From Hydrogenobaculum sp. Y04AAS1 (GTDB taxonomy: Bacteria; Aquificota; Aquificia; Aquificales; Aquificaceae): a stretch of DNA of 64,000 nucleotides. Of the stretch, positions 8,702 through 60,712 are shown in pieces. The stretch's first letter is position 1. The number at the start of each line of letters is the position of its first letter. The DNA lies in NCBI RefSeq assembly GCF_000020785.1, contig NC_011126.1:1-64000 (forward strand), in the 5' to 3' direction. The translations under genes and the position numbers were made by a program. Under the pieces are notes generated by a model that saw only the letters and a list, made by a program, of their open reading frames with translations, made no database searches and was not told the origin of the DNA.

Positions 8702-8755
8702 ATTTACAAGTCTGCCACGCTTCACAAGTCTGCCACGATTTACAAGTCTGCCACG
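8702..8755. repeat. three tandem 18-bp repeats
   Basis: Three direct 18-bp units lie back to back between the ATPase and adaptor genes. Units 1 and 3 are identical (ATTTACAAGTCTGCCACG) and unit 2 differs at two positions. On the minus (sense) strand each unit contains GTGGCAGACTTG followed at once by a stop codon, all in the frame of the ATPase gene. They do not form an obvious hairpin. Role unknown. Confidence 0.85.
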
Positions 8756-8757
8756 GT

Positions 8758-9465
8758 TTAGTGTATTTCATCCAAAGAAGCCTCTTTTATAACACCATCT
8801 TCCATATGCACTATTCTAGTGGCATCTTCAAATATTCTGCTATCGTGGGTTATAACCAATATTGTCCTTTCTGGCGTAAGCATTCTTTCTTTTATAAGTT
8901 GCATTACTTTTTTACCGGTATCTCCATCCAAAGCGGCGGTAGGTTCGTCCAAAGCCAGTATTGTAGGATTTGTGGCGAGAGCCCTTGCTATTGCTACTCT
9001 CTGTTGCTCCCCGCCAGATAACTTGTAAGCTGGAAGCTCGTATTTAGATTCTGGAAGCTGGGCCATTTGAAGTTTTTCTTTTGCCAAATTTATAGCTTTG
9101 TCCCAGTCTTCACCTTTTAAAACAAGAGGTATAGCTACATTTTCCAAAACGCTCAATCTAGGAAAAAGATGGTAATCTTGGAAAACAAAACCTATGTTGT
9201 TTAGCCTAAACCTTGCCAACGAATCCGTGTCTAAAGACCATATATCTGTATCTTTTACTATTACCTTACCGTTGTCTGGTCTCAAAACCCCAGATATTAG
9301 GCTTAAAAACGTGGTTTTACCAGAACCAGAAGGCCCTACTATATACAACATCTCTCCGTAATATATGTCTAGACTTACATTTTTCACAGCACACGTTTTA
9401 GCTTCACCAGTCCCAAAGCATCTTGTGAGATTTTGCACTCGTATGGATATTTTTTTATCCTCCAT
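8758..9465 (-). CDS. ABC transporter ATP-binding protein (DevA/MacB/LolD group)
   Basis: Powers the exporter. Walker A GPSGSGKTTFL lies near residue 45, the signature LSGGEQQRVAIARA and Walker B ILALDEPTAAL in the second half, and the H-loop in VITHD. The short ATPase with a separate permease fits the type VII/MacB-like architecture used with DevB-type adaptors. The start at 9465 was preferred over a longer frame because GAGG lies 5 bases before it and it starts 1 base after the permease stop, suggesting translational coupling. Confidence 0.94.
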   Translation of the reverse strand: MEDKKISIRVQNLTRCFGTGEAKTCAVKNVSLDIYYGEMLYIVGPSGSGKTTFLSLISGVLRPDNGKVIVKDTDIWSLDTDSLARFRLNNIGFVFQDYHLFPRLSVLENVAIPLVLKGEDWDKAINLAKEKLQMAQLPESKYELPAYKLSGGEQQRVAIARALATNPTILALDEPTAALDGDTGKKVMQLIKERMLTPERTILVITHDSRIFEDATRIVHMEDGVIKEASLDEIH

Positions 9466-29386: not shown

Positions 29387-29803
29387 ATGATAGGGGCTAT
29401 TAGCTTTCCTATTTTATCCAAAAGCGATAAACCTACAAGTCAAAGAAGTATCCAAACACAGCAAGAGATAAATCAATTAAAGGCTATAGATCGAGATGTT
29501 AGGGCTCATGAAATGGCTCATAAGATAGCCGGTGGAGATTTAACTGGTCCAATAAACTATAAGTATGTAATAGGACCAAACGGTAAAAAATATGCTGTGG
29601 GTGGTGATGTGAGTATAGATGTTTCACCAGGTCCTACCCCTCAAGCTACGATAAAAAAGATGGAAAGAGTTATAAAAGCAGCTTTGGCACCCGTAGACCC
29701 ATCTGCTCAAGATAGAGCTGTAGCTGCCCAGGCTCAAATGATGTTAGAACAAGCTCAAATGGAGTTACAAAAAGAAGGTTCTAATATATCTGTATACGCT
29801 TGA
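29387..29803 (+). CDS. SprA-related putative zinc metalloprotease
   Basis: A 138-residue protein with the family core DRDVRAHEMAHKIAGGDLTGP followed by YKYVIGPNGKKYAVGGDVSIDVSPGPTP. HEMAH is an HExxH zinc motif. The proteins known from this family are usually longer with variable N-termini; this one has only about 30 residues before the core and a Gln/Met/Ala-rich helix after it. No signal peptide is evident. Function unknown. It stands alone and is followed by the tandem repeat array. Confidence 0.8.
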   Translation: MIGAISFPILSKSDKPTSQRSIQTQQEINQLKAIDRDVRAHEMAHKIAGGDLTGPINYKYVIGPNGKKYAVGGDVSIDVSPGPTPQATIKKMERVIKAALAPVDPSAQDRAVAAQAQMMLEQAQMELQKEGSNISVYA

Positions 29804-29807
29804 TATT

Positions 29808-30165
29808 GTGCTTTAGCATTTTTAGAAGCTATTGAGTTGATTTGCCTGTTCATTAACGCTGAAACGCGGGTTGCACCGCTCTAGTGTGCTAACGGCATTT
29901 CTCTAAGCTATGGAGTGTAAATGACCGTTCATTAGATTTGAAATGCGCTAATAGCGCTCTAGTGTGCTTTAGGCATTTCTCGCATCTCCTGTGCGGCTTT
30001 GTTCGTTCATTAACTACGAAACGCGGTTACACCGCTCTAGTGTGCCAATGGCATTTCTCTGAGCTATGGAGTGTAAATGACCGTTCATTAGATTTGAAAT
30101 GCGCTAATAGCGCTCTAGTGTGCTAACAGCATTTCTCTAAGCTAATGAGTGCCTGTGCCTGTTCT
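29808..30165. repeat. tandem array A of about 78-bp structured repeats
   Basis: Four full units start at 29848, 29927, 30005 and 30083 (79, 78 and 78 bp apart) after a partial unit at 29808-29847. Units 1/3 and 2/4 pair up, giving a dimeric period near 156 bp. Each unit has GTTCATTA, a short hairpin, CTCTAGTGTG and GCATTTCTC. The hairpin is GCGCT-AAT-AGCGC in units 2 and 4, GCGGT-TAC-ACCGC in unit 3, and a bulged version in unit 1. This fills the only stretch over 300 bases without a gene. Bases 30166-30181 show nothing further. Confidence 0.9.
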
Positions 30166-30181
30166 TTTGATCTATCTCTGT

Positions 30182-31006
30182 CTACGCTTGATATACTTCT
30201 AATTTTTGATGCTTTCTTTCTGTCAAAAAGTTGAAAAAATTTATTGTTTCACTTGAAACTATGTCTTTTTCGTTGTCCATAGTTACGATGTGATAGCTGT
30301 TTGAAAGCTCTATAAATTTTTTAATTTTGCTTGGTGCTTTTTCATATATAAAAATTGTTCCTTTTATAGAAGACAAATCGTCTTCTTTTGAATGAATTAA
30401 AATAAATGGCGCTTTTAAAAGGTGTATATGTTTTTTGATGTATTTTGCCATTCGTTTTAGTTCTACTATAATGGGCGCTGGTATTTTATCGTATGCTATG
30501 GCTTCATTTTTCTCAGATTTCATCATCTGTATGATTTTTCTTCGCATGGCTTCATTTTTTATGCCAAAGGGTTCTTTTTCTTTCCAGTAGTAAATATATT
30601 TTAACGGTGTATAAAGTCCAAGGGGCAATAGAAATCTATACCAAGGTATTGCCCATCCATCTATACCCATGGCTGGTGCCCAAGAGCCAACCCCATCTAT
30701 ATCAGGAAACTCCATACCAAGCATAAGAGAAAGCATACCACCTACGCATAGTCCAGCTACAAAAACTTCGTTGTATTTAGCTTTTAAATCAAGGTAAAAG
30801 TCTTTGGCAAACTCATAAAGATCTTCCCATTTAGTTTTTTTAAGCTCTTCAAGGCTAGAACAATGGCCAGGTAGTATTGGGAAATATACATCGTAATTTG
30901 CCTTGGCAAAATCTCTGGCCACCCATCTTAGTTCTAAAGGCGTACCAGTAAGTCCATGAAGCAGCAAAACCGCTCTTTCGTTGTTGTTTTTTATAGAAAG
31001 CTCCAT
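30182..31006 (-). CDS. alpha/beta hydrolase, carboxylesterase type
   Basis: A 274-residue alpha/beta-hydrolase with the oxyanion stretch VLLHGLTGTPLELRWVA, a nucleophile elbow GLCVGGMLS in which Cys replaces the usual Ser of GxSxG, an acid in HSKEDDLSS and the catalytic His in SNSYHIVTMD. The layout resembles monoacylglycerol lipase/Est30-type carboxylesterases. The Cys nucleophile position makes esterase activity uncertain; dienelactone hydrolases also use Cys. Last gene of tpx-HAD-aminotransferase-hydrolase, starting 1 base after the aminotransferase stop. Confidence 0.82.
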   Translation of the reverse strand: MELSIKNNNERAVLLLHGLTGTPLELRWVARDFAKANYDVYFPILPGHCSSLEELKKTKWEDLYEFAKDFYLDLKAKYNEVFVAGLCVGGMLSLMLGMEFPDIDGVGSWAPAMGIDGWAIPWYRFLLPLGLYTPLKYIYYWKEKEPFGIKNEAMRRKIIQMMKSEKNEAIAYDKIPAPIIVELKRMAKYIKKHIHLLKAPFILIHSKEDDLSSIKGTIFIYEKAPSKIKKFIELSNSYHIVTMDNEKDIVSSETINFFNFLTERKHQKLEVYQA

Positions 31007-59150: not shown

Positions 59151-59384
59151 CTAGTGTGCAAAGCATTTCTCTGTGCTCCTTGCGCTGTATTGCCTCTTTT
59201 TAACGCTGAAATGCGATTTCATCGCTCTAGTGTGCTCTCGCATTTCTCTGAGCTACTGTGAGCCATTGCCTGTTTATTAACGCTGAAACGCGGTTGCACC
59301 GCTCTAGTGTGTAAAGCATTTCTTACACTACCAGTGTCTGTTCTTTTATCTATCCACAAAGTAAAATGCAATTTCATCGCTCTA
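59151..59384. repeat. tandem array B of the structured repeat family
   Basis: Same family as array A. A partial unit starts at 59151 and full units at 59195 and 59272. A partial unit starts at 59340 and overlaps the mazG stop codon. The core hairpins are GCGAT-TTC-ATCGC (unit at 59195), GCGGT-TGC-ACCGC (59272) and an imperfect GCAAT-TTC-ATCGC (59340). Each hairpin is followed by TCTAGTGTG or a close variant, then GCATTTCT. It lies 40 bases upstream of the rpsA start. Confidence 0.88.
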
Positions 59385-60286: not shown

Positions 60287-60712
60287 GGGGGCGAACGGTT
60301 TCGACGTTGGAGCGCCGGGTAGATGATAGCAGGCCAGGTGGCGACTGTGATAGCCAAAACAAACAGCTCCCGAAGCTGAACTCTCTCTCGCTGCTTAACT
60401 AAAAGCAGCGCGTCCTTGCTGGTTTTGGTACCTTGGCCAGCTGTGGGCGTCAGAGAAAGGTGTCCTGGTTGGTGATTTGCTGTCTTGCGCCAAACCAGTA
60501 CTTAAGACAGCCTGAGGTTTGTGGTTTTTCATAGGTTTTGCCTCAAACCCAGTAAGAGTGGCAAAGACACGTTTCTGGACTAAGGAACAGGCACAGCCAC
60601 TCCTTAGCTCTGAGAAATGCTGTTAGCACACTTAATAAAACCTATGTAAGCTTGTAGAAGTCATCTATCCCGGTTCTGACGGACGCGGGTTCGATTCCCG
60701 CCGCCTCCACCA
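60287..60712 (+). ncRNA. ssrA: transfer-messenger RNA (tmRNA)
   Basis: One-piece tmRNA of 426 nt. The acceptor GGGGGCG pairs with CGCCTCC, and the T arm ACGCGGGTTCGATTCCCGC and CCA end are encoded. Helix P2 pairs CCGGGTAGATGA with TCATCTATCCCGG. The tag frame is GCT at 60366 to TAA at 60396-60398, encoding APEAELSLAA. Near the 3' side, CTAAGGA (60580-60586) pairs with TCCTTAG (60601-60607) and the loop ACAG can pair with CTGT at 60620-60623, giving a pseudoknot in the PK4 position. Bases 60584-60632 match a repeat unit on the opposite strand at 44 of 49 positions. Confidence 0.97.

Follow-up and report, generated by a model that had tools for sequence, protein, structure and literature searches.

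The gene (ssrA) for tmRNA, an RNA by which stalled ribosomes are rescued, lies in the hot-spring bacterium Hydrogenobaculum sp. Y04AAS1 near the end of the window, by which we mean the whole 64,000-nt stretch of DNA analysed here (positions 1 to 64,000 of NC_011126.1). It carries one complete unit of a palindromic element that also occurs elsewhere in the window. The features are as follows:

60287–60712, plus strand: tmRNA gene (ssrA), 426 nt with the insert, matching Rfam RF00023 over its full length (123.8 bits, E = 6.4e-48).
60366–60395, plus strand: codons of the tag APEAELSLAA, with the stop at 60396–60398, by our own reading of the sequence.
60516–60521 and 60544–60549, plus strand: arms of PK4 stem 1, outside the insert.
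60530–60539 and 60637–60646, plus strand: arms of PK4 stem 2, on either side of the insert.
60555–60632, minus strand (antisense to the tmRNA): 78-nt palindromic element, one complete unit in the PK4 loop, identified by a covariance-model match and by its absence in sister species.
29804–30184, plus strand: head-to-tail array of five units, the last degenerate, which includes 30117–30165; found with the covariance model and missing in the sister species G003.
59152–59306, plus strand: a further pair of units 1.2 kb upstream of ssrA, set against the TA edge of a degenerate unit that is older (about 59305–59384).

A tRNA-like domain, a tag reading frame and the pseudoknot stems were all found in the gene at 60287–60712. 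It was missed by ARAGORN, probably because of the insert. The initial annotation had noticed that the reverse complement of 60584–60632 resembles 30117–30165 in the array, and the alignment confirmed 44 of 49 identical positions without a gap, the initial 21 being all identical. A whole-genome search returned this match with E = 3.4e-13, which excludes both chance and low-complexity sequence as its source. The match was real, but its size had been understated, since the 49 nt are part of the complete 78-nt unit at 60555–60632; the covariance model matched this unit over its full length (model positions 1–80) at 60554–60633 on the minus strand, with 84.1 bits.

Within PK4, the insert follows the 3′ arm of stem 1 and precedes that of stem 2. 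Folded alone, it formed a long hairpin of −29.5 kcal/mol (z = −3.87, with none of the shuffles as good), and the hairpin also formed when the surrounding region was folded along with it. No Rfam family matched the insert on its own. It had been proposed that the segment 60584–60632 forms PK4 and that an inserted repeat could have become part of the pseudoknot. Neither proposal held, because the PK4 stems flank the insert and occur in insert-free sister species, and the insert is a self-contained hairpin in the loop.

For comparison, tmRNA genes were collected from 60 relatives. The tmRNA was 348–349 nt long in four other Hydrogenobaculum species versus 426 nt in Y04AAS1, and intact tmRNAs of more distant Aquificota reached at most 358 nt. 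When the four sister tmRNAs were aligned with that of Y04AAS1, the extra sequence was exactly 78 nt, with CCCAGTA on one side and the 3′ arm of PK4 on the other, and the PK4 arm sequences were kept in the species that lack it. The absence of the 78 nt in these four tmRNAs indicates that the repeat entered ssrA, which was the first of two alternatives in the initial annotation, and not the reverse. The tmRNA copy begins and ends exactly where the units of the family do, and about 100 further unit matches to this family lie in two genomes. Its flanks are consistent with a TA site, with the right TA exact and the left flank slightly shifted and substituted relative to the sister species. Judged from this alignment, the insert in ssrA is the derived state.

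Each unit of the family is a 76-nt palindrome flanked by TA, with the pattern TA-GTGTGC...GCRCTC-TA and a period of 78. A covariance model built from 33 units gave about 59 matches in Y04AAS1 and about 43 in G003, counts that are approximate because the weakest matches lay near the E = 0.01 limit. The model found no family match in six other genomes, and a search of 136 Aquificota genomes under stricter filters found none in the 134 besides Y04AAS1 and G003. Plasmids, phages and other genomes were also free of matches in a search from which records close to the Y04AAS1 genome may be left out, and spread on phages, on plasmids or via other genomes was rejected on these zero counts. Units were on average only 68% identical across all pairs, so the date of the insertion into ssrA is uncertain. 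Over its whole unit the tmRNA copy was an ordinary member, 70–75% identical to many others. The long foldback was present in many other units, and similar folds occurred at many unrelated sites. Mini-hairpins near both unit ends covaried, with 24 double-changed cells compared to 8.2 in shuffles and 0 of 500 shuffles as high, although sequence relatedness can inflate the result of this control. In the tmRNA copy alone, a C-G pair of the mini-hairpin near one end was swapped for T-A.

All of the listed unit-to-unit junctions (28/28) were head-to-tail, with 2 bp (TA) common to the neighbours. Readings of the arrays as CRISPR (the units are heterogeneous and without spacers) or as integron-type arrays (without cassettes, and with no attC core by eye) were rejected. 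The arrays differed between the two family-bearing species: three units stood at the 59.2-kb site in Y04AAS1 versus one in G003, where the degenerate unit at about 59305–59384 is the sole unit, and three stood at 915 kb versus two in G003. Three pairs of occupied and empty sites fit duplication of a TA target, at 1,216.5 kb and 403.15 kb of Y04AAS1 and at 1,215.05 kb of G003. A target duplication of about 19–22 bp, taken from a first comparison with G003, was discarded, the supposed duplication at 59.2 kb being the start of an element unit. The array at 29.8 kb was flanked by a 22-bp imperfect direct repeat (29785–29806 and 30173–30194, 91% identity) that is single-copy in G003; this is a local oddity for which TA duplication does not account. 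Adjoining units were 73% identical compared to 68% overall, and a few units within one array were 96–100% identical, which together suggest that the arrays probably arise both by insertion of different units and by tandem duplication.

Unit copies were also found in frame inside ORFs, in three frames, two antisense and one sense to the unit. The genes concerned encode, by Pfam, ribonucleotide reductase, type IA topoisomerase, helicase, CDP-alcohol phosphatidyltransferase and an integrase-type transposase; an EAL-like gene, named by eye only, also bore a copy. Several in-frame copies were polymorphic between species. Ribonucleotide reductase carried four in-frame copies in the only such gene found; one large-subunit gene was present per genome in Y04AAS1, G003 and G004, and the draft G001 yielded none. 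In the alignment of the reductases, a 26-residue insert in Y04AAS1 was missing in G003 and G004, and a 57-residue double insert in G003 was missing in Y04AAS1 and G004.

The Y04AAS1 reductase (about 1,216.0 kb) additionally contained six residues, LQVYHD, that were missing in G003 and G004 and are probably an in-frame copy of a second, smaller repeat. This repeat has a period of 18 nt and the core ACAAGTMTRCCACG; it was found in tandem at 8702–8760 of the window, within some of the 78-nt units and genome-wide, with 90 exact cores in Y04AAS1, 69 in G003, 51 in G004, 28 in G002 and 23 in G001, and 0 with a reversed-pattern control.

The search for a mobiliser covered three domains, and none of them matched in the Y04AAS1 or G003 genomes: IS630/mariner DDE_3 (PF13358), the Y1 transposase (PF01797), whose absence also speaks against a REP/RAYT system, and IS110 (PF01548). 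IS630, Y1/REP and IS110 elements were rejected as mobilisers, since these domains are absent from both genomes that bear the family. The integrase-core gene at 622.7 kb itself carries a copy and is thus a target. Repeated ORFs of about 390 aa adjoined several unit arrays (413.4, 1,462 and 1,496 kb in Y04AAS1); they looked AAA-ATPase-like by eye and were set aside as an autonomous partner.

These data very probably reflect the insertion of a non-autonomous mobile palindrome into the PK4 loop of ssrA, where it would be tolerated as an independent hairpin, and a trans-acting, TA-targeting enzyme would move it. The 76-nt palindrome together with TA (78-nt period) entered ssrA in the Y04AAS1 lineage, and the site that it took contains TA and belongs to the loop leading from PK4 stem 1 to the 3′ arm of stem 2. 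In the transcript, the hairpin would project from the pseudoknot chain and leave trans-translation intact, and we infer that tmRNA function is retained despite the insert. Copies in protein genes would be tolerated likewise, adding peptides of about 26 residues to the products. The enzyme acting in trans would target and duplicate TA dinucleotides, and arrays may grow by directional insertion beside an existing unit and by tandem duplication.

Other readings were weighed against this one. The family may represent an undescribed, orientation-specific mode of spread, in which a palindrome-collecting system recognises structure, adding peptides of about 26 residues to essential enzymes and a hairpin to tmRNA; we put this forward tentatively, as a possibility that we would not expect to prevail. 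Such a route is suggested by the uniformly head-to-tail, TA-sharing junctions (28/28), mostly between non-identical neighbours, by the covarying mini-hairpins and by the absence of the three transposase types.

A second reading accepts the same insertion but gives the RNA another fate. The insert would be an intervening sequence that is removed or nicked in the mature tmRNA, for example by RNase III, yielding a two-piece tmRNA. Hairpin intervening sequences in rRNA are a known case of RNase III-type cutting. The long, nearly continuous stem of the insert is, in general terms, a substrate of this type, and both arms of PK4 stem 2 would stay and hold the pieces together. The copies in protein genes, however, stay in frame, so removal is unneeded there, and we consider processing of the insert unlikely.

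Recruitment of the insert for a role of its own is more doubtful still. The hairpin might add to tmRNA function, through stability at high temperature or contact with a protein or the ribosome, or array RNA might regulate tmRNA by antisense pairing. The hairpin is very stable, and the C-G to T-A swap is confined to the tmRNA copy, yet other thermophilic relatives manage without the insert and copies at many unrelated sites fold similarly. As to pairing, the initial annotation had held that array RNA could base-pair with tmRNA. This part stood on energetic grounds, since the duplex of the insert with the array strand reached −80 to −88 kcal/mol compared to −29.5 kcal/mol for the insert alone. 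A promoter-like site near the array did not occur beyond chance expectation, and complementarity between tmRNA and array is automatic for a family that occurs in both orientations. Antisense control of tmRNA by array RNA had no other backing.

The opposite direction, in which the repeat family originated from part of ssrA and spread from tmRNA, was the other alternative of the initial annotation and is refuted. The piece is common to both, and no local match to the tmRNA segment is closer than the array copy at 30117; however, the 78 nt are absent in all other intact-length Aquificota tmRNAs, the copy in tmRNA has no special standing within the family, and G003 carries complete units at many sites while its ssrA site is empty, so ssrA was not the seed. 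An assembly error is scarcely credible even with the species represented by one genome, because the genome is complete in a single contig, the ends of the insert are exact unit boundaries and the tmRNA is intact on either side of them, and an earlier report, probably based on the same assembly, describes the same 78-nt PK4 insertion in Hydrogenobaculum sp. Y04AAS1 (PMC4227106).

Insertion of a mobile palindrome into ssrA, the reading we prefer, can be set beside several known systems. A 2014 paper (Lechner et al., 2014; PMC4227106) reported the 78-nt insertion in PK4 of the Y04AAS1 tmRNA as resembling a hairpin and being compatible with PK4. The account given there concerns the identical insertion but treats it as an isolated extension, without a repeat family, polymorphism or protein-coding copies, and a search of the open-access literature found no paper that links the insertion to a mobile palindrome family with protein-coding copies. 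A mobile palindrome that inserted into ssrA now offers an explanation for a tmRNA extension that had been without one since 2014.

Group I introns in tmRNA genes are likewise mobile DNA in ssrA (PMC11915505), but they lie in the T-loop, measure hundreds of bases and are self-splicing, whereas the Hydrogenobaculum insert is 78 nt long, lies in PK4 and has no Rfam match. The TA-flanked MITEs (Correia/NEMIS, RUP and ERIC) are closer, being small palindromes that end in TA, bear terminal inverted repeats and duplicate their target, and some of them supply reading frames (PMC2229807); copies within RNA genes are not described for them in that review's treatment. In comparison with IS630/Tc1-mariner MITEs, TA duplication was seen at three pairs of sites and uncleanly in ssrA, and a related transposase with matching ends was not found. 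Unlike the TA-flanked MITEs, the Hydrogenobaculum family forms heterogeneous head-to-tail arrays and is accompanied by no IS630-type domain in Y04AAS1 or G003. We therefore say that it works like a TA-target MITE and do not file it as a member.

The closest likeness is to the Rickettsia palindromic elements (RPE), which have been described as fused in tmRNA and RNase P (M1) RNA genes (Delihas, 2007, a review citing Ogata, 2002; PMC2229807). As portrayed in that review, they are non-autonomous repeats, short and palindromic, that occur in spacers, in frame in conserved protein genes and in tmRNA. The Hydrogenobaculum family similarly comprises a short palindrome in many copies, in-frame copies in protein genes that are absent in orthologues, and a copy in a stable RNA gene. 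It differs in unit length (76–78 nt versus about 105–146 bp) and in phylum, and, unlike RPE, it has head-to-tail arrays with a common TA and covarying mini-hairpins near both ends. The family appears to behave like RPE, a likeness of features and not a claim of membership. After Rickettsia, it would be a second, apparently independent case in which palindromes have entered protein genes as well as tmRNA and broken neither, here in a thermophilic phylum that is free-living, and the reductase and tmRNA copies, with their empty alleles in sister species, offer direct tests of insertion tolerance in essential genes.
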